Positions 3,562-60,226 of a DNA stretch of 64,000 nt are shown here, piece after piece. The translations under genes and the position numbers were made by a program. Position 1 is the stretch's first letter, and every line of letters starts with the position of its first letter. The DNA comes from Serinicoccus chungangensis (GTDB taxonomy: Bacteria > Actinomycetota > Actinomycetes > Actinomycetales > Dermatophilaceae), in assembly GCF_006337125.1 (NCBI RefSeq), contig NZ_CP040887.1, positions 1,426,001 to 1,490,000 on the forward strand, in the 5' to 3' direction. The notes under the pieces were generated by a model. The model ran no database searches and was not told where the DNA came from. It saw only the letters and a list, made by a program, of their open reading frames with translations.

Positions 3562-3586
3562 GGCGAGCACCGGCATACCGCACCTC

Positions 3587-3620
3587 GGCGCCCCGTCAGC
3601 CCTCGGGCCGACGGGGCGCC
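3587..3620. terminator. Bidirectional hairpin terminator between acnA and the GMC gene
   Basis: GGCGCCCCGTC (3587-3597) pairs perfectly with GACGGGGCGCC (3610-3620) around a 12-base loop. It sits between two convergent genes, so it can serve both. Confidence 0.7.
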
Positions 3621-3647
3621 GCTGTCGTCACGGGCCGATGAGCGTCC

Positions 3648-7010: not shown

Positions 7011-7913
7011 CTAGCTGAGGTCCTGCTGGGAGCGGCGCTCCACCGGCTTGCCCGCCTCCTCCCCGACCGCGGCGGCGTGGTCGGGGACCGGCAGCTGCAG
7101 CCGCCGGTCGGTGCGCTGGTAGCCGGTCGAGTCGGGGCGCTCCGGCATGCTCAGCTCGTCCTGGTCCACCTGCTCGTAGGGGACCGTGGAGAGCAGGTGG
7201 GCGATCATGTTGATGCGGGCCGAGCGCTTGTCGTCGGACGGCACGACGTTCCACCGGGCCTCGGGGATGTCGGTGTGGACGAACATCTCGTCCTTGGCCC
7301 GGCTGTAGTCCTCCCACCGGGTCAGCGACTCCAGGTCGGTGGGGGAGAGCTTCCAGCGGCGCATCGGGTCCTCCATCCGCGACCGGAAGCGGCGCTCCTG
7401 CTCGTCGTCTGAGACCGAGAACCAGTACTTGCGCAGCATGATGCCGTCGTCCATGAGCATCCGCTCGAAGATCGGGGTCTGCTGCAGCCAGCGCCGGTGC
7501 TCCTCCGAGGTGCAGTAGCCCATGACCCGCTCGACCCCGCCACGGTTGTACCAGGAGCGGTCGAAGAGCCGGGTCTCGCCGGCGGCGGGCAGGTGCTCGA
7601 TGTAGCGCTGGAAGTACCACTGCGTCTTCTGCCGCTCGGTCGGGGTCGGCAGGGCCACGATCTGGGCGTCGCGGGGGGAGAGGTACTCGGTGACCCGCTT
7701 GATCGCCCCACCCTTGCCGGCCGCGTCCCGACCCTCGAAGACGACGACGAGACGGTGGCCGGTCTCCTTGATCCACGTCTGCATCCCCACGAGCTGCTCC
7801 TGGAGCCGGAGCAGCTCGTCCTCGTAGACCTTCTTGTTCAGCCGCGGCACCTTTCCGGCGGTGCCCCCGCTCGTGGTCCCCTCGGTCTTCTTCGCGTTGC
7901 TGCGCGTCGCCAT
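7011..7913 (-). CDS. ppk2: Polyphosphate kinase 2 family protein
   Basis: PPK2-type nucleotide kinase using inorganic polyphosphate to phosphorylate nucleoside diphosphates (or monophosphates). The 300 residues fit a one-domain PPK2. Walker A is FEGRDAAGKGG near residue 60, Walker B lies in DRSWYNRGGVERVMG, and the lid region WYFQRYIEHLP is present. The N-terminal 30 and C-terminal 40 residues are polar extensions. The ATG at 7913 has only a weak ribosome site. The gene ends 9 bp from the convergent ABM gene. Confidence 0.93.
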   Translation of the reverse strand: MATRSNAKKTEGTTSGGTAGKVPRLNKKVYEDELLRLQEQLVGMQTWIKETGHRLVVVFEGRDAAGKGGAIKRVTEYLSPRDAQIVALPTPTERQKTQWYFQRYIEHLPAAGETRLFDRSWYNRGGVERVMGYCTSEEHRRWLQQTPIFERMLMDDGIMLRKYWFSVSDDEQERRFRSRMEDPMRRWKLSPTDLESLTRWEDYSRAKDEMFVHTDIPEARWNVVPSDDKRSARINMIAHLLSTVPYEQVDQDELSMPERPDSTGYQRTDRRLQLPVPDHAAAVGEEAGKPVERRSQQDLS

Positions 7914-13495: not shown

Positions 13496-14479
13496 ATGGA
13501 TGCTTCGCCCGTGATGGCGACCGTGCCGACCGAGCTGCTGGCCCGGCTCATCGGGCCGTTGCACCGGGGGCGGGTGACGCGGGAGGACCAGGAGGCGGTC
13601 GTCCAGACGATGACGGCCCTGGAGGGTGCGGCGTTCCGCGACCTCAAGTACCGCCTCAACGCCACCGGTGACCACCACGACCTCGAGCACCTGGTCTTCG
13701 ACGACCTCGACGAGGACCTCCAGGACGTCCTGCTCGAGCACATCGCCGCCCAGGCGACGGGCGAGCCGTCCCCGGACCTGCGGGTGCTGTGCGACATCGA
13801 CGACACCGTGCGCTGCGCGATCCACGACGAGCGCTACCCGCGCGGCACGGTCTACCCCGGCGTCGTCCGGCTCCTCACCGAGCTGGACAGCGGGGCGGCC
13901 GAGGACCCGGGGCGGGTCGGGGACCTCACCTTCGTCACGGCCCGGCCGGGTGGTCCGCTCGGGCTCGTGGAGCAGTACACCCGGGACGACCTCGCCGAGC
14001 TCGGCCTGCCGACCCACACCGTGCTCGGAGGCTCGTTGCTCAACCTGCACACCAAGAACGCCATCGCCGAGCGCAAGCTCCAGAACATGGAGCGCGACCA
14101 CCTGCTCTTCCCCGAGTGCCGCATGGTCTTCATCGGCGACAGCGGGCAGGCCGACGGCGACGTCGGCGCGGAGATGGCCGCGCGGCCGCACGACCACGTC
14201 GTCGGCACGCTCCTGCACGACGTCACCGGGCTGGACGCGGCCGAGCGGGCCGCGTGGGCCGCGCGAGGGGTGCACGTCTTCGACACCTACGTCGGGGCCG
14301 CGGCGCACGCCGTGCGGCTGGGGCTGCTGCACCCCGAGCAGGCGCAGGTCGTGGCGACCGCAGTGCAGGCCGAGCTCGAGGCGGTCGGGCTGGAGGGGGA
14401 GCAGGCCGCGCGGATGGCCGCCCTCCTCGAGGCGGACCTGGCTGCCCTGGACGCGACCGACGCCCCGCCAGCAGGCTGA
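13496..14479 (+). CDS. App1-type phosphatidate phosphatase-like HAD protein
   Basis: 327 residues. The central catalytic region carries the HAD nucleophile motif LCDIDDTVR (about 99-107), a threonine motif TFVTARPGG, a lysine in HTKNAIAERK, and the acidic motif VFIGDSGQADGDV. This is the layout of the App1 (DUF2183) catalytic domain, known in yeast as an Mg-dependent phosphatidate phosphatase. The N-terminal 90 residues are helical. AGGAGG sits 4 bases before the ATG. No signal peptide or membrane segment is visible. Together with the upstream lipid kinase it suggests phosphatidate/diacylglycerol turnover, but the substrate is unproven. Confidence 0.8.
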   Translation: MDASPVMATVPTELLARLIGPLHRGRVTREDQEAVVQTMTALEGAAFRDLKYRLNATGDHHDLEHLVFDDLDEDLQDVLLEHIAAQATGEPSPDLRVLCDIDDTVRCAIHDERYPRGTVYPGVVRLLTELDSGAAEDPGRVGDLTFVTARPGGPLGLVEQYTRDDLAELGLPTHTVLGGSLLNLHTKNAIAERKLQNMERDHLLFPECRMVFIGDSGQADGDVGAEMAARPHDHVVGTLLHDVTGLDAAERAAWAARGVHVFDTYVGAAAHAVRLGLLHPEQAQVVATAVQAELEAVGLEGEQAARMAALLEADLAALDATDAPPAG

Positions 14480-14492
14480 CGGGGCGTCGGTC
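14455..14492. terminator. Strong bidirectional terminator hairpin
   Basis: GACCGACGCCCCG (14455-14467) and CGGGGCGTCGGTC (14480-14492) pair perfectly over 13 bp with a 12-base loop. It overlaps the stop codon of the App1-like gene and faces the end of the convergent aldo/keto reductase gene. Confidence 0.75.
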
Positions 14493-14530
14493 GAGAGCGT
14501 CACCCGGGCGGTGCCCCGGTGGCACCGGCG

Positions 14531-32789: not shown

Positions 32790-34007
32790 TCAGGTCGAGA
32801 GCAGGACGCGGTCGAGGACCTCGGCGGCGCGGGTGCCGTCGTGGTGGCGACGCGCCCAGGCCGGCCCCCGCGACGCCAGCTCGGTGTGCCGTCCCCGCTC
32901 GTCGAGCACCCCCCGGAGCACCGCCTCGAGGGTGTCGGGGTCGGCGTCGAGCACGGGCACGACCCCGTCGCCGCCGCGCTCCCGGTCGGCCCGGGCCATG
33001 CGGTCGCGCACGCCGGGCGCGAGGTGCGCGACCGCCAGCCGCCCGGCCGCGAGCGTCTCGGCCAGCAGCACCCCGGGGTTGCCGAGCACGACCTGGTCGA
33101 CGACGACGTCCGCCTCCCCCACGAAGGCCGCCATCTGCGCGTGCGGCACCCCGGTGAGGCGGCGGTACTCCACCAGGCCGGCGGACTGCAGACCCTCCAG
33201 CACCCGCTCGACCGCGTCGGTGCCCTTGAGCCGGGGGTTGGACGGCGCGTGCAGCACCACCGGGCGCGGGCGGGTCAGCGCCGCGGCCCCCGCCGCCCCC
33301 GCGAACAGCTCCACGTCGACGACCAGCGGCAGCCACGTCGCCCCGGGCAGCACGTCGAGCAGGTCGGGCGTCGAGACGAGCACCGGCCCGGCGTAGTCCG
33401 CGAGGTCGCGCGTGTTGCGGTCGACGATGGCCTGCAGCGTGCGGAGGTAGTCGTCCCAGGGGCCGTGGAAGGGGCTGTGCGGGTAGGCCGCCGCGTGCGC
33501 CCGCAGGTCCCGGACCTCGCTGCCGTGGTAGAGCACCGCGTGCCGGATCCCGGCCGCCTCCAGCGCGGGCACGTCGGCGAGCATCGACCCCGCGTGCAGG
33601 TCGCCGAGCACCGGACGGCCCGACTCGAACACCACGTGCGTGGCCTCGCGCAGCACCCGCGCCCCGTGGATCGCGCGGAGGTGACCACGCTGGGCCAGCG
33701 CCGACAGCTCGTGGTCGGCGGGGTAACGGAACGCGCCCGCGGTCGCCGCTCGGTGGGCCAGGAGGTTCTGCGCGGCGACCCCGGGCAGCGCGCGCTCGAC
33801 GGCGCGCGCCCAGGCGTACGCCTGCCCCGCCGTGTTCCACGGACCGAGGTAGAGCCGCCGGTCGGCCGCCGGCATCGGGGCGAGCGCGCGCAGCTCGGCG
33901 TCGGCCCGTCGCCGCACCGGCAGGCTCGCCAGCTCGCGCACTGGCGCGGGCATCGCGGCCAGACCGCGCCAGGCGAGGCGCCGCAGGCGGTTGACGGGGG
34001 AGACCAC
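32790..34007 (-). CDS. Putative GT-B glycosyltransferase
   Basis: 405 residues. Family assignment rests on GT-B-like features: LYLGPWNTAGQAYAWARAVE near the N-terminus, AVLYHGSEVRDL in the middle, VVLHAPSNPRLKGTDAVERVLEGL at the start of the C-terminal domain and ADVVVDQVVLGNPGVLLAETLAAGRL near the donor site. It has no signal peptide. The GTG start at 34007 is 40 bp from the divergent ABC exporter, so both probably share one control region. Acceptor and donor unknown. Confidence 0.78.
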   Translation of the reverse strand: MVSPVNRLRRLAWRGLAAMPAPVRELASLPVRRRADAELRALAPMPAADRRLYLGPWNTAGQAYAWARAVERALPGVAAQNLLAHRAATAGAFRYPADHELSALAQRGHLRAIHGARVLREATHVVFESGRPVLGDLHAGSMLADVPALEAAGIRHAVLYHGSEVRDLRAHAAAYPHSPFHGPWDDYLRTLQAIVDRNTRDLADYAGPVLVSTPDLLDVLPGATWLPLVVDVELFAGAAGAAALTRPRPVVLHAPSNPRLKGTDAVERVLEGLQSAGLVEYRRLTGVPHAQMAAFVGEADVVVDQVVLGNPGVLLAETLAAGRLAVAHLAPGVRDRMARADRERGGDGVVPVLDADPDTLEAVLRGVLDERGRHTELASRGPAWARRHHDGTRAAEVLDRVLLST

Positions 34008-44863: not shown

Positions 44864-45799
44864 CTACGACGCGTCCGGTGCGGGGAAGCGGGCGTCGAGC
44901 CAGGCGACGAGGTCGGCCTCGACCTCGTCGCGGTTGGTCTCCTGGAGCACCTCGTGCCGGGCGCCGGGCCAGATGCGCACGCTGACGTCCTGCATCCCGA
45001 CGTCGCGGAACAGGGCGGCGACCTCCTCGGTCCCGACCGCCCCGCCGACCGGGTCGACCTCGCCGGCGACCAGGTGCACGGGCAGGTGCTTCGGCATCTG
45101 CGCCGCGACCGAGGGTTGGCTCACCCAGCGCAGCCCCATGAGCAGGTCGCGGTAGAAACCGGCCGAGGCGACCGCCCCCGAGAGCTCGTCGGCCTCGTAG
45201 GCGTCGACCTGGGCGGGGTCGCGGGAGAGCCAGTCCGAGCGGGTCCGGGTCGGCCGGAAGCGGGCGTTGTAGGGGCCCATGGTCAGCGCCGTCATGAGGT
45301 GGCTCGGGGCACGGGGACCGCGCAGCCGCGCCTCCACCGAGGCCACCTGCAGCCCGAGCCACGCCATCAGCCCCGGGGGACCGGCGGTGCCCGAGAGCAC
45401 CAGCGCGGCGAGGTGGTCGCCGTACCGCGCCGCGTAGGCCCGGGCGAGGAAGGACCCCATGCTGTGCCCCAGCAGCACGAGCGGCACCCCCGGCAGCTCC
45501 TGCTCGATCCGCCCGCCGAGCGCGAGGAGGTCGTCGACGACGGCCGCGAAACCGCCCTCGTCGCCCAGGTGGCCCAGGAGGCCGTCGGTGACGGTCCGCC
45601 CGTGCCCCCGGTGGTCAGGCGCGTACACGGCATACCCGTGGTCGGTGAGCCGGCGGGCGACGTGGTCGTAGCGGGCCGCGTGCTCGACCATGCCGTGCGC
45701 GACGAGGACGGCCGCGCGGGGCCGGCCCTCGGGCGTCCAGCGGCTGACGTGGACCGCGGTGCCGTCGGGGGTGGTCAGGCTGAAGGTGGAGTCGGCCAT
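44864..45799 (-). CDS. Alpha/beta hydrolase, monoacylglycerol-lipase-like
   Basis: 311 residues. Nucleophile elbow LLGHSMGSFLARAY (Ser in GHSMG), oxyanion-region AHGMVEHAARY, DHRGHGRT, late Asp in AGEVDPVGG and His in PGARHEVLQE complete the triad. The sequence matches the lysophospholipase/monoglyceride lipase group. No signal peptide, so it acts in the cytoplasm. ATG 45799 gives the standard start. It sits in the polysaccharide locus on the opposite strand; a role there is not implied. Confidence 0.9.
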   Translation of the reverse strand: MADSTFSLTTPDGTAVHVSRWTPEGRPRAAVLVAHGMVEHAARYDHVARRLTDHGYAVYAPDHRGHGRTVTDGLLGHLGDEGGFAAVVDDLLALGGRIEQELPGVPLVLLGHSMGSFLARAYAARYGDHLAALVLSGTAGPPGLMAWLGLQVASVEARLRGPRAPSHLMTALTMGPYNARFRPTRTRSDWLSRDPAQVDAYEADELSGAVASAGFYRDLLMGLRWVSQPSVAAQMPKHLPVHLVAGEVDPVGGAVGTEEVAALFRDVGMQDVSVRIWPGARHEVLQETNRDEVEADLVAWLDARFPAPDAS

Positions 45800-53140: not shown

Positions 53141-53279
53141 TCGGTCCTGCTGCGGGCGCGCCCGGGACGGACGAGGGGGAGAGGGGTATGCCGCGGTGCC
53201 CCGCCGACGTCGCGGGTCGCCACTGCCAGCCCCAGACCGTCCCTCGCGGTCACGAGCCACGGGCGGCGTCGGGCCACCC

Positions 53280-53460
53280 GTGCACTGGCAGGTCTTCGGA
53301 CTCACGGGCAGGTCCGGAGGGTCCCTCCGGACGGACCTACTGGTCGCGGCTTCCCACGCCCGGGGGCGCAGTGCCATAGGTGCGACGGTCGTTCCCGTTC
53401 ACCGCTGCGGGGCAGTCCCGGGTTCTCACCGGGTTCCCTCTTGCGACGACCACGACCCAC
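53280..53460 (-). ncRNA. Cobalamin riboswitch
   Basis: Read on the minus strand the leader contains, in order, GAGGGAACCCGGTGAGAA, CGGGACTGCCCCGCAGC, GCACCTATGGCACTGCG, GTGGGAAGCCG and GAGTCCGAAGACCTGCC, the conserved blocks of the B12 riboswitch including the B12-box region. It lies about 160 bases before nrdA. Streptomyces class I RNR operons are known to be repressed this way by adenosylcobalamin when a class II enzyme is present. Ends are approximate. Confidence 0.92.
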
Positions 53461-53498
53461 GGGAGTCCCGCGGGCCGCAGCCGAACCAGCTGCGTGCG

Positions 53499-53653: not shown

Positions 53654-55723
<2,070 letters not shown>

Positions 55724-55882
55724 CTCCCGGCCCGCGCGGAGAGGATCCCTGCAGCAGCACCGGTCCTGGCCGCATACCGTGCGGGCGGCGGACGGGATCG
55801 CCGCAGGCGCGCCGGTGGTGTCCGCCGGTTTGACGCATCATCCATGCCGTGGAATAAGGTTAGGCATAATCCTTGCTTACCT

Positions 55883-55916
55883 GTGAGCAGGCACACCGAC
55901 GTGGGTGCCTGCTCAC
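55883..55916 (+). promoter_or_regulatory. Perfect 12-bp stem in the cysIHJ leader
   Basis: The 12-bp arms enclose a 10-base loop. No U-run follows, so it is not a standard terminator; translation of the leader frame would melt it, and ribosome stalling at the Cys codon would hold the 3' arm open. TTGACG at 55830 and TAAGGT at 55855 are weak promoter candidates upstream. Confidence 0.6.
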
Positions 55917-55924
55917 CCTTGTGA
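55883..55924 (+). CDS. Candidate 13-residue Cys leader peptide in an attenuator-like hairpin
   Basis: GTG at 55883 opens a 13-codon frame, M/V-S-R-H-T-D-V-G-A-C-S-P-L, ending TGA at 55922-55924, 21 bp before cysI. The frame lies almost entirely in a perfect hairpin: GTGAGCAGGCAC (55883-55894) pairs with GTGCCTGCTCAC (55905-55916); the Cys codon is in the 3' arm. The RHxDV..AC pattern resembles the short 'RHVDL...C' leader peptides annotated before actinobacterial sulfur genes, and Cys-codon leaders control cysteine operons in mycobacteria. No Shine-Dalgarno, so a leaderless start is expected. Function is inference. Confidence 0.5.
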   Translation: MSRHTDVGACSPL

Positions 55925-55945
55925 CCGGACGGAAAGCCGCACCAG

Positions 55946-57661
55946 ATGCCGAAGAGCCAGCAGGACGCCCCGCTGATCGTCGAGGGCCCGCTGTCCGACA
56001 ACGAGCGCCTCAAGCGGGAGAGCAACTACCTGCGCGGGACGATCGCCGAGGACCTGCAGGACCAGATCACCGGCGGCTTCAGCCCCGACAACTTCCAGCT
56101 CATCCGCTTCCACGGGATGTACCAGCAGGACGACCGCGACATCCGCGCCGAGCGCGCCCAGCAGAAGCTGGAGCCGCTCATCAACGTCATGCTCCGGGCC
56201 CGCGTGCCCGGCGGCGTCATGACGCCCGAGCAGTGGCTGGCCGTCGAGGACTGGGCCGAGAAGCACACGATGTACGGCTCGGTGCGGCTGACGACCCGCC
56301 AGACCTTCCAGTTCCACGGCGTCTTCAAGCCGGACATCCGGGACACCCACCAGGCGATCAACGCGGTCGGCCTGGACTCCATCGCCACGGCCGGTGACGT
56401 CAACCGCAACGTGCTCTGCTCCAGCAACCCGCTGGAGTCCGCGCTGCACGCCGAGGTGCACGACTGGTCGCGGCGCATCTCCGAGCACCTGCTGCCGCGG
56501 ACGACGGCCTACTACGAGATCTTCCTCGACGGCGAGAAGGCGCTGAGCACCGAGGAGCCGGTGCTGGGCGAGACCTACCTGCCGCGCAAGTTCAAGACCA
56601 CGGTGTCGCTGCCGCCGGACAACGAGGTCGACCTGCACGCCAACGACCTCAACTTCGTCGGCATCGTCGAGGACGGCACCCTCGTGGGCTGGAACGTCCT
56701 CGTCGGGGGCGGGCTCGCCATGACCCACGGGGACACCAACACCTACCCGCGGACGGCCGACGACCTCGGGTTCGTCCCGCTCGAGCACACCCTGGCCGTC
56801 GCCGAGCACGTCGTCACGGTGCAGCGCGACTGGGGCAACCGGGTGGACCGCAAGAACGCCAAGACGAAGTACACCCTCGACCGGGTCGGCACCGACGTCT
56901 TCAAGGCCGAGGTCGAGCGCCGCGCCGGCATCACCTTCGAGCCCTCCCGGCCCTACGCCTTCACCTCCCGGGGCGACCGCTTCGGCTGGGTCAAGGGGAC
57001 CGACGGCACCTGGCACCTCACCGCCTTCATCCTCAACGGCCGCGTCCGCGACGAGGAGGGCCGGCCGATCAAGACCGGGCTGCGCAAGATCGCCGAGGTC
57101 CACCGCGGGCACTTCCGGCTCACCGCCAACCAGAACCTCGTCATCGCCGGGGTCCCGACGGCGCAGAAGCGGACGATCGAGCGGATCGCCCGCCAGCACG
57201 GCCTCGTCGACGACACCGTCACCCCCCAGCTGCGCAACTCCATGGCCTGCGTATCCTTCCCGACCTGCCCCCTGGCGATGGCCGAGTCCGAGCGCTTCCT
57301 GCCCGGCTTCGTCGCCCAGGTCGAGGAGCTGCTGGTGAAGCACGGCATCCCGGACGACCACGTCGTGCTGCGCGTCTCGGGGTGCCCCAACGGGTGCTCG
57401 CGCGCCATGCTCGCCGAGGTGGGCCTGGTGGGCAAGGGCCCGGGCAAGTACAACCTGCACCTCGGTGGGGACCGGATCGGCACGCGCGTGCCGAAGCTCT
57501 ACCGGGAGAACATCAGCCCCGAGGTCATCCTCGCGGAGCTGGACCACCTCATCGGCGCCTGGGTCTCCGGGCGCGAGGAGGGCGAGGGGTTCGGCGACTT
57601 CCTCATCCGCACCGGGGTCGTGGCCAAGGTCACCGTCTCCCGCACCGACTTCCACGCCTGA
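55946..57661 (+). CDS. cysI: Sulfite reductase hemoprotein
   Basis: 571-residue siroheme/[4Fe-4S] enzyme reducing sulfite to sulfide with electrons from CysJ. The four cluster Cys lie at 434 and 440 ([13 protein letters not shown]) and 479 and 483 ([13 protein letters not shown]), the same numbering as in E. coli CysI. The N-terminus [13 protein letters not shown]...[17 protein letters not shown] is almost that of enterobacterial CysI rather than of the ferredoxin-type Sir common in actinobacteria. It is first in cysI-cysH-cysJ, whose leader carries the candidate attenuator. Confidence 0.94.
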
Positions 57662-57680: not shown

Positions 57681-58427
57681 ATGAGCGCTCTCGCCACCCA
57701 CCACGACGGGTGCACCACCCTGCCGTTCCTGCCGCACGACCTCGGGTCGGTGTCGGCCCGCCTCGAGGGGTGCAGCGCCCAGCAGCGCGTCGACTGGGCC
57801 CTGCAGCACCTCCCGGGCGGGTATGCCGTGACCTCCAGCTTCGGGGTCCAGTCCGCCGTCATGCTGCACCTCGTGACCCGGGTCGTGCCCGACGTGCCGG
57901 TGCTGCTCTTCGACACCGGCTACCTCTTCCCGGAGACCTACCGGTTCGTCGACGAGCTCACCGACCGGCTCGACCTCAACCTGCACGTCTACCGCTCACC
58001 GATGTCCCCGGCCTGGCAGGAGGCGCGCTTCGGGCGGCTCTGGGAGCAGGGCGTCGAGGGCATCACCGAGTACAACCGGATCAACAAGGTCGAGCCGATG
58101 CAGCGGGCCATGACCGAGCTCGGGATCGGCACGTGGTTCAGCGGGCTGCGCCGCGAGCAGTCCAGCGGCCGCGCCGGGCGGCAGCCGGTGGAGCAGCAGA
58201 ACGGCCGGGTCAAGGTCCACCCGCTCGTCGACTGGACCAACCGCGACGTGCACCGCTACCTCACCGAGCACGACCTGCCCTACCACCCGCTCTTCCACGA
58301 GGGCTACCTCAGCATCGGCGACACGCACACCACGCGCCGCGCCGAGGACGAGCTGGACGCGGAGGGCTCGCGCTTCTTCGGGCTGGTCCGCGAGTGCGGG
58401 CTGCACGTGGAGCAGGAGGGCGCATGA
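57681..58427 (+). CDS. cysH: Phosphoadenylyl-sulfate (PAPS) reductase
   Basis: 248 residues. The PP-loop is [14 protein letters not shown], followed by [28 protein letters not shown] and the C-terminal ECGLHVE with the catalytic Cys. The two extra Cys pairs that bind the iron-sulfur cluster of APS reductases are absent, and [12 protein letters not shown] matches the enterobacterial PAPS type, so it should use thioredoxin to reduce PAPS to sulfite. ATG 57681 has GAGAGGA upstream. It ends overlapping cysJ. Confidence 0.93.
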
Positions 58428-60226
58428 CGACGACCTCCCAGCTGCTCCAGGGCGCGAGCCCGTTGTCGCCGGACCAGCACCAGCGCTTCGCCGAGCTGGC
58501 CTCCACCCTGACCCCGCTGCAGCGGATGTGGGTCAGCGGCTACCTCGCCGGCAGCGCCGAGGGCGCCGACCCGACCGGCCCCGCCGCCGCGGCCTCCGCC
58601 GAGGCGGCCACCCTCACCGTCCTCTACGGCTCCCAGACCGGCAACGCCCGGCACGTGGCCGGCGACCTGGCCGAGGCCGCCCGGGCCCGCGGGCTCACCG
58701 TGTCGCTGACGGACATGGCCGACTACAAGCCCACCCAGCTGAAGTCCGAGAAGTTCCTCACCGTCGTCGTCTCCACCCACGGCGAGGGCGACCCGCCGGA
58801 GAGCGCGGAGAAGCTGCACGCCTTCCTCGCCTCCCGCAAGGCCCCCGACCTCTCCGGCGCCCAGGTCACCGTCCTCGGGCTGGGCGACTCCAGCTACGAG
58901 TTCTACTGCCAGGCGGCCGTGGACTTCGAGGACCGGCTGCGCGCGCTCGGCGCGAGCGTCGTCGCCGAGCGGCTGCTGCTGGACGTGGACTACGAGGACG
59001 AGGTGGCCGGCTGGGTCGAGTCGACCCTCGACGTCTTCGAGCCCGAGCTCACCGCCGTCACCCCCGCCGGCGGCACCGTGGTCCAGATGCCCGGTCTCGC
59101 GGCGGCGGCACCGACGGCATACTCCCGGCGCAGCCCCTTCCTCGCCGAGATCGGCGAGGTCCAGAAGATCACCGGGCGCGACAGCACCAAGGACGTCCGG
59201 CACGTCGAGATCTCCCTGGAGGGCTCCGGGCTGACCTACCAGCCGGGAGACTCCCTGGGGGTGTTCTTCCGCAACGACCCCGACGCGGTCGACGCGGTCC
59301 TGGAGGTCCTGGACCTCGACGGGACGCAGGAGGTGACCCTCGGCGAGACCACCAGGACGCTGCGCGACGCCCTCCTCGAGGACCTCGAGCTCACCCAGTC
59401 CTACCCCGGCTTCGTGCAGAAGTACGCCGAGGCGGCCGGTCTGCCCACCCTGGCCGAGATGGCGCAGGACAAGGCGGCGCTGCGCTCCTTCCTGGAGGAG
59501 CGGCAGATCTACGACATCCTGCACGAGCACCCCGCGCAGGTCGGCGCTCAGCAGCTCGTCGACGCCCTGCGCAAGATGCAGCCGCGGCTGTACTCCATCG
59601 CCTCCAGCCAGCGCGAGGTCGAGGACGAGGTGCACCTCACCGTCGGCGTGCTCGAGTGGGACGGCTTCGGGCGCGCCCACCTGGGCGGCTGCTCGGGGCA
59701 CGTGCGCCGCTCCGCGGAGGGTGACCGGGTCAAGGTCTACGTCGAGCCCGGCGAGCACTTCCGGCTGCCGCAGGACCCGGACGTGCCGACGATCATGATC
59801 GGCCCGGGCACCGGCATCGCCCCCTTCCGCGCGTTCCTGCAGGAAAGGGACGCCGCCGACGCCGAGGGCGACAACTGGCTGCTCTTCGGGAACCCGCACT
59901 TCACCCAGGACTTCCTCTACCAGGTCGAGATGCAGAGCTACCTGAGGTCCGGGCTCCTGACCCGGATGGACGTCGCCTTCAGCCGGGACCAGGCCGAGAA
60001 GGTCTACGTGCAGGACCGCCTGCGGCAGCACGGGGCCGAGGTCTACGACTGGCTGGAGCGGGGCGCGCACCTCTACGTCTGCGGTGACGCCGACCGGATG
60101 GCGAAGGACGTCCACGCCGCCCTCGTCGACATCGTCGCCGAGCACCGAGGCGTGGGCGCCGAGGCCGCGGAGGACTACCTGGGCGGGCTGCGGGACGCCC
60201 GGCGCTACCAGCGCGACGTCTACTAG
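58424..60226 (+). CDS. cysJ: NADPH-sulfite reductase flavoprotein
   Basis: 600 residues, the length of E. coli CysJ. The flavodoxin-like FMN domain ([42 protein letters not shown]) spans about 65-205. The FAD part includes [21 protein letters not shown] and GGCSGHV; the NADPH part has [16 protein letters not shown] and [14 protein letters not shown], ending DVY. It passes electrons from NADPH to CysI. ATG overlaps the cysH stop by 4 bp. The stop is 13 bp from the convergent GDPD gene. Confidence 0.95.

Follow-up and report, generated by a model that had tools for sequence, protein, structure and literature searches.

Introduction

How is a sulfite reductase operon of proteobacterial type controlled in an actinobacterial host, and does the short cysteine-codon frame written into a hairpin directly before it take part in that control? 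The question is raised by a locus of Serinicoccus chungangensis that lies within a window of 64,000 nucleotides (the whole stretch of DNA that was analysed, with a G+C content of 73%). A preliminary description of this DNA had reported a perfect 12-bp hairpin and a 13-codon frame just before cysIHJ, and both are indeed present. The features considered below, all on the forward strand and in window coordinates, are the following.

55853..55870, + strand: promoter-like element AATAAGGTTAGGCATAAT, nearly invariant in nine genomes
55883..55916, + strand: hairpin with a 12-bp perfect stem, an A bulge, two extra C-G pairs and a 5-nt loop (from the sequence and its predicted fold)
55883..55924, + strand: 13-codon frame MSRHTDVGACSPL with a GTG start and a TGA stop (55922-55924); its ends vary in relatives
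55910..55912, + strand: single Cys codon TGC, in the 3' arm of the stem; found in nine of nine genomes, but within the invariant stem
55927..55936, + strand: weak Shine-Dalgarno-like GGACGGAAAG of cysI, from the sequence
55946..57661, + strand: cysI, NADPH sulfite reductase hemoprotein of proteobacterial type (TIGR02041, 885.4 bits, over the cut-off)
57681..58427, + strand: cysH, phosphoadenylyl-sulfate reductase (NF002537 and TIGR02057 over the cut-off)
58424..60226, + strand: cysJ, NADPH sulfite reductase flavoprotein (TIGR01931 over the cut-off)

Results

Structure of the region upstream of cysI

The inverted repeat has the form GTGAGCAGGCAC-N10-GTGCCTGCTCAC (55883-55916), with arms at 55883-55894 and 55905-55916 and a 10-nt spacer that contributes the A bulge and the two C-G pairs to the predicted fold. 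The RNA from 55883 to 55945 folded at -31.4 kcal/mol (z -3.57), a value equalled by 2 of 200 shuffles. Long perfect stems are over-represented in the window as a whole: those of at least 12 bp with a spacer of 3-20 nt amounted to 6 distinct ones (eight listed entries, three of which are one stem), compared with 0.9 on average over 10 first-order Markov sequences, and the cysI hairpin alone is not unique by its length. The other perfect stems of 12-14 bp lie at 3586-3621, 7789-7819, 14454-14493, 33000-33035 and 44904-44931.

The frame reads GTG AGC AGG CAC ACC GAC GTG GGT GCC TGC TCA CCC TTG TGA, and 21 nt separate its stop from the cysI start. In the promoter-like element CATAAT (55865-55870) is the likely -10, from whose position the 5' end of the transcript would fall about 4-6 nt before the NTG; a consensus promoter scan reported no promoter. 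The locus has the general outline of a leader attenuator, namely a short ORF near the predicted 5' end, a Cys codon and a sulfur gene downstream.

Two familiar classes of element could be set aside. A classical terminator was rejected, since a scan of 55700-56050 for terminators detected no stem followed by a T run. Rfam gave nothing at the gathering score and nothing relevant at E <= 10 at the hairpin, the sole loose match being an irrelevant one on the opposite strand (E 4.1); with no relevant covariance-model match, a known riboswitch or Rfam attenuator family was also rejected. Elsewhere in the window an ordinary Cobalamin riboswitch (RF00174, 74.2 bits) occupies 53270-53469 on the minus strand, at the 5' end of an apparent B12-dependent ribonucleotide reductase gene.

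Origin of the cysIHJ operon

The best 80 matched CysI loci of a genome scan were proteobacterial by title, with 68-77% identity in the best segment. The order cysI-cysH-cysJ occurred in two of four proteobacterial loci read by eye (L004, L005); L006 had no intervening cysH and L003 was cut. Within the genus, CysI was found in 9 of 31 genomes, at 87-100% identity in eight of them and in three pieces of 81-92% in G019. At E <= 1e-100 it did not turn up elsewhere in the family, whose 52 further genera were covered by a search of 186 family genomes, and samples of 396 genomes of the order and 394 of the class yielded none beyond this genus. The usual enzyme of the family is the ferredoxin-type Sir, detected at E <= 1e-60 in 140 of the 186 genomes and in 4 of the 31 of the genus; the nine CysI genomes gave no Sir match at this threshold. 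This distribution suggests to us that the genus acquired the operon, which took over from Sir.

Eighteen of the 31 genus genomes, some of which are incomplete, carried neither CysI nor Sir at the thresholds used, and sulfate assimilation may have been lost repeatedly in the genus. In G019 (L091, L096, L097) cysI is split over three reading frames next to an intact hairpin, through either pseudogene formation or sequencing errors.

Conservation of the hairpin and of the frame

The hairpin was present in all nine CysI-bearing genomes of the genus, with 23 of its 24 core paired bases invariant. At fourfold sites of cysI, counted in eight genomes with G019 left out, 85 of 260 were invariant; at this eight-genome rate, and with sites treated as independent, the binomial probability of at least 23 invariant bases in 24 is about 1e-10. 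Since stem length alone is insufficient, it is this conservation in relatives that raises the cysI hairpin above chance. The result shows that the stem is under strong constraint; it does not indicate of what kind. Promoter-like block and hairpin form one conserved stretch in the nine genomes, and the immediate flanks on both sides have diverged.

The stem energy ranged from -22.9 to -28.0 kcal/mol in the nine genomes. The perfect 12-bp form is that of the window and of L085 and L086, which have a T-A outer pair, and the outer pair is mismatched in the other six. Compensatory changes in the stem, which the preliminary description had suggested looking for, did not emerge: 11 of 14 pairs are the same in every genome, and by its pair counts the stem did no better than shuffles (175 of 500 reached them). 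The lone double change, G-C to U-A in L085/L086, affects the outermost position of the stem, where five of the seven distinct sequences have no pair. Among the inner pairs, changes left a G-U in L084 and another in L089 and L096, and one change, in L090, breaks its pair.

The same description had staked its reading on conservation in relatives of both the GTG frame and the stem. The stem, as seen above, holds in every genome; the frame is weakly preserved. It starts with ATG in five genomes and with TTG in two, GTG and CTG being found once each. The 13-codon stop is kept in six of nine and moved or lost in three: at L096 the frame is 21 codons long, its end overlapping the start of cysI, at L090 it continues in frame into CysI, and at L089 it runs for 85 codons out of frame into cysI. 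Base changes in codons 2-10 are few, five in all, and every one is non-synonymous (S2G, D6A, V7P with two bases, V7M); those other than S2G fall in the loop. An R-H-x-D start was found in seven of nine genomes, and the Cys codon and an NTG in all nine; however, the T and G of the NTG and the Cys codon are not independent evidence of translation, because they lie within the conserved stem. Strong constraint falls on the hairpin, and not on the peptide, the exact start codon or the stop.

A model of the hairpin gave no match at E <= 1 in the 80 proteobacterial cysI loci (the best 80 matched), nor did its DNA match plasmids at E <= 0.01; on these grounds its carry-over from the donor was rejected. 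Since no hairpin was found at the 80 proteobacterial cysI loci, it was probably added in the recipient.

When the 186 family genomes were searched with the hairpin model, the nine cysI sites stood at E <= 1.5e-14, and 120 genomes had some match at E <= 1. We inspected the next 11 off-target loci (L197-L207, E 2.3e-7 to 1.1e-3), several of which are one locus in related genomes, so that not all are independent. In nine of the 11 the hairpin lay 11-58 nt past the end of a long open frame (frames called mechanically), by eye with no T run directly behind; L202 lies within an apparent cysN and L203 was ambiguous. None of the 11 resembles a leader, and we rejected them as related leaders. That like-made hairpins follow long open frames makes it plausible that such a hairpin acts on RNA 3' ends or on the polymerase.

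Native cysteine leaders in the same genomes

The genome of the window also harbors a native leader, MLSRGWHLTTCHEVDLLRVSSMLMCPCR followed by a stop, before a second cysH (L210, C1:3301521-3304862, minus strand), which first surfaced as a weak match in a CysD search of this genome. This second cysH scored over the NF002537 cut-off and is followed, by eye, by a siroheme-type gene. A DNA search with the native leader at E <= 0.01 matched 18 of the 186 genomes; ten of these matches were used, and L223 (G125) and seven weak or partial ones stand outside the leader counts. The leader precedes a cysH-like frame in seven CysI genomes and a sir-like frame in three other genus genomes; the search found no copy in G011 and G015, which carry the cysI hairpin.

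In the seven CysI genomes the native leader has an ATG in 7/7, a TGA at codon 29 in 7/7 and synonymous changes, and the cysI frame of the same seven has an ATG in three and the 13-codon stop in five, a comparison that favours conserved copies, as the native leaders were found by DNA similarity. Given this bias, a leader under selection looks unlike the cysI frame at equal divergence. The conserved start and stop that mark a leader attenuator are seen in the native leader wherever it was found and are missing from the cysI frame.

The native leader folds a hairpin of 10-12 bp in its own RVSSMLM(C) codons in all ten sequences folded, and an 11-bp hairpin in these codons of native sir/cysH leaders occurs at L213-L222, L187 and L173. 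The 3' arm of this hairpin carries a Cys codon in 8 of the 12 sequences of an alignment (A3) and an Arg codon in the other four (G027, G030, G017, G057); the alignment excludes L158 and L181, whose frames could not be aligned without gaps. Pairing was retained in 93.9% of pair cells; the exchanges were of the G-U/G-C/A-U kind, G055 had a double change, and the excess of pairing over shuffles was unclear (109 of 500 as good). Among 20,000 random synonymous codings of LRVSSMLMC, 271 (1.4%) made all 11 pairs. The RVSSMLM(C) peptide motif may be partly an RNA motif.

A separate short frame of RHxD type, with a Cys near its end, stands before another gene at L211, in a genome (G006) that has neither CysI nor Sir; against NF042936 it gave E 6.5e-6, below the cut-off.

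A promoter-like motif shared by several sulfur leaders

From the cysI element and three sir leaders we derived a strict motif, [AG]ATAA[CG][CG]N1-4 GCAT[AG]AT. In 2.14 million bases of fetched loci (both strands, many overlapping) it occurred only before cysI frames and sir leader ORFs. In the form RATAASS-N1-4-GCATRAT it stands just before sulfur leader ORFs at 55853-55870 of the window and at L092, L093, L095, L181 and L218, L181 being a motif-bearing sir leader not used in the derivation. Sir loci had been fetched for 30 of the 140 family genomes with Sir (L171 and L172 are cut by contig ends), and seven of the 30 contained leader ORFs, five recognized by script and two (L173, L181) by reading. 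The motif fits four of these seven, and only one of seven native cysH leaders, most of which are one base outside it; the native leaders begin about 6 nt past their own CATGAT. Judged by this motif, the putative promoters of the cysI frame and of the native leaders are similar, not identical, and the shared motif is possibly the site of a sulfur regulator. A similar element, ATAAC...GTTATA, was noted by eye at several of the family's sir genes that lack such a leader.

Discussion

What, then, would the hairpin do? We tentatively read it as a promoter-proximal cis-regulatory element of the cysIHJ transcript, in plan a reduced relative of the native sir/cysH cysteine-leader attenuators, a proposal that we regard as possible and hold with restraint. 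The hairpin would begin a few bases past the transcript 5' end, and its GC-rich stem, folding in the nascent RNA, would lower read-through into the operon or its translation. A ribosome starting at the NTG beside the stem would open it, and is its probable opener; under cysteine shortage, pausing at the Cys codon of the 3' arm would hold it in that state. In support of a leader-like reading, the RHTD of the frame resembles the RHxDL start of known leaders.

How an opened stem might act on cysI was approached through predicted folds. Alternative partners for either arm were rejected as not beyond chance: L090 had the longest downstream partner, of 10 nt, a length reached or exceeded in 9 of 200 random draws, and in the other eight genomes the longest was 5-8 nt. 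Sequestration of the Shine-Dalgarno region by the hairpin was rejected as well, as it was not seen in the folds. The free fold pairs this region with the start of cysI in five of nine genomes (L083-L087), the hairpin not being involved, and in the window it is partly paired in the same way. Masking a ribosome stalled at Cys left the predicted openness of the cysI Shine-Dalgarno in the window at 0.27 (0.27 before) and clearly raised it in only two of the nine (L084, L089); a fold state with the ribosome at the stop was uninformative, since the mask overlaps the Shine-Dalgarno. With no T run, no conserved competitor and an unchanged Shine-Dalgarno openness, stem opening alone does not yet explain upregulation of cysI.

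A more specific version of our reading, which we consider unlikely as it stands, holds that what is conserved at the core of cysteine leaders in this lineage is a hairpin made of the leader's own codons, usually with Cys in its 3' arm. On capture of the cysIHJ operon, a hairpin of this plan, independent or stripped-down, would have come to lie at its 5' end, with the RNA switch kept and the peptide nearly dispensable. If this were true, the 'RVSSxL(M)C' motif conserved in the peptides would partly be a signature of RNA structure. The locus is also a case of a proteobacterial-type metabolic operon behind an apparent host-type promoter and leader. The presence in one genome of two hairpins with a 3'-arm Cys, one native and one on the acquired operon, makes possible a direct test of how actinobacterial cysteine leaders act.

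The cysI dyad might instead be a DNA operator, an alternative that we also judge unlikely, although it has points in its favor. Under it the arms, of 11-12 bp, lying directly past the promoter and spaced by about two helical turns, would be half-sites of a regulator that represses or adjusts transcription, and the RNA fold and the frame would be by-products. A near-complete invariance without compensatory change suits sequence-specific recognition, and conservation runs unbroken from the promoter-like block into the dyad. However, a search of the window's genome with the RNA model at E <= 1 listed only the hairpin site and its own reverse complement, in a search with strict filters that scored 34 of 1725 candidates and may miss weak copies. 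Furthermore, the two inner pairs that become G-U (L084; L089 and L096) keep RNA pairing and break DNA symmetry, but any A-to-G change opposite T gives a G-U, and the third change (L090) breaks its pair.

It is known that 5' stems such as that of ompA stabilise mRNA, and a 5'-terminal stem shielding the operon mRNA from 5'-dependent decay while sensing nothing is a further, distinctly unlikely explanation. A predicted 5' overhang of only about 4-6 nt, taken from the -10 position, would suit it, as would the stem energies in all nine genomes. Such a stem should, however, tolerate compensatory changes, and the core has none, in a set of nine close sequences that are few for this purpose.

The form given in the preliminary description, a conserved 13-codon cysteine leader of a distinct new type in which stalling at Cys holds the stem open, now appears improbable. 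It can point to the Cys codon and NTG in all nine genomes and to the R-H-x-D start in seven; the first two are bound up with the conserved stem, as noted above, and start, stop and loop codons drift, unlike those of the native leader that seven of these genomes also carry, from which its plan is not distinct. That the hairpin has no function and is a chance stem hitchhiking with a conserved promoter after one operon gain is highly improbable: six such stems occur in the window and the genomes searched had the operon in a single genus, but the sequences upstream of the promoter-like block and downstream of the stem diverged where the stem did not, at the binomial P of about 1e-10 (eight-genome rate, independent sites) given above.

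Comparison with known cysteine leaders

The tentative reading of the hairpin as a reduced cysteine-leader attenuator can be set against systems already described. Known actinobacterial cysteine leaders have an RHxDL core and then RVxxxLC, with ten residues from RH to Cys. The RHTDVGAC of the window contains RHxD (with A for D in L085/L086) and no RVxxxLC. Like the leaders modelled in NCBIfam as NF042934 (cis_reg_atten), NF042933 (leader_Ms5788A) and NF042936 (leader_Ms4527A), the cysI frame is short, lies near the predicted 5' end, has a Cys codon before a sulfur gene and begins with R-H-x-D; it differs from them in its 13 codons, five residues from RH to Cys, a single Cys, the missing RVxxxLC core and a start and stop that are not conserved. 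The longer versions of the frame in relatives (21 and 26 residues, against 13 in the window) matched nothing in NCBIfam at E <= 10. This weighs little, because the native leader of the same genome had no match to the NCBIfam leader models either. With NF042934, two typed control peptides scored over the cut-off and, among four relatives' leaders, one (G008) did; across the genus, 1 of 31 genomes was over the cut-off of NF042934 and 0 of 31 over that of NF042936. The sensitivity of these models is limited here.

In the literature searched, with narrow terms, we found no paper on the cysI hairpin. Cysteine-responsive leaders of mycobacteria are discussed in parts of PMC9094748. The primary paper on such leaders is Canestrari et al. 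2020, listed among the references of PMC7790235 and PMC9094748. Seliverstov et al. 2005 (PMC1262725), in the sections drawn on here, describe, for actinobacterial cys operons, upstream leader ORFs that contain Cys codons and come with no conserved terminator hairpin. Those mycobacterial and propionibacterial candidates resemble the cysI frame in having Cys codons in a short ORF and no T-run terminator, and differ in carrying runs of Cys codons near the stop (PMC1262725, same sections). The portion of PMC1262725 on ilvB describes leader ORFs that overlap candidate terminator hairpins in Corynebacterium, Mycobacterium and Streptomyces; here too regulatory codons overlap a hairpin, but the codons are for branched-chain amino acids and the hairpins are followed by poly-U.

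The preliminary description had held that peptide and switch in the same bases look distinct. The overlapping ilvB leaders, as given in those sections of PMC1262725, speak against this, as do the native leaders, which likewise fold a hairpin in their own codons. What stands of that interpretation is a conserved hairpin with a Cys-codon frame before a sulfite reductase; its distinctness, the conservation of its frame and compensatory changes in its stem do not. The closest counterpart is the native leader of the window's own genome. Its promoter is one base off the strict motif, its ATG and TGA are kept in 7/7 genomes with synonymous changes between them, and it has two Cys codons near its stop, in all of which it differs from the cysI frame; the two share a similar promoter-like element, a start near the predicted 5' end, an in-frame hairpin and a Cys codon on the 3' arm of that hairpin.
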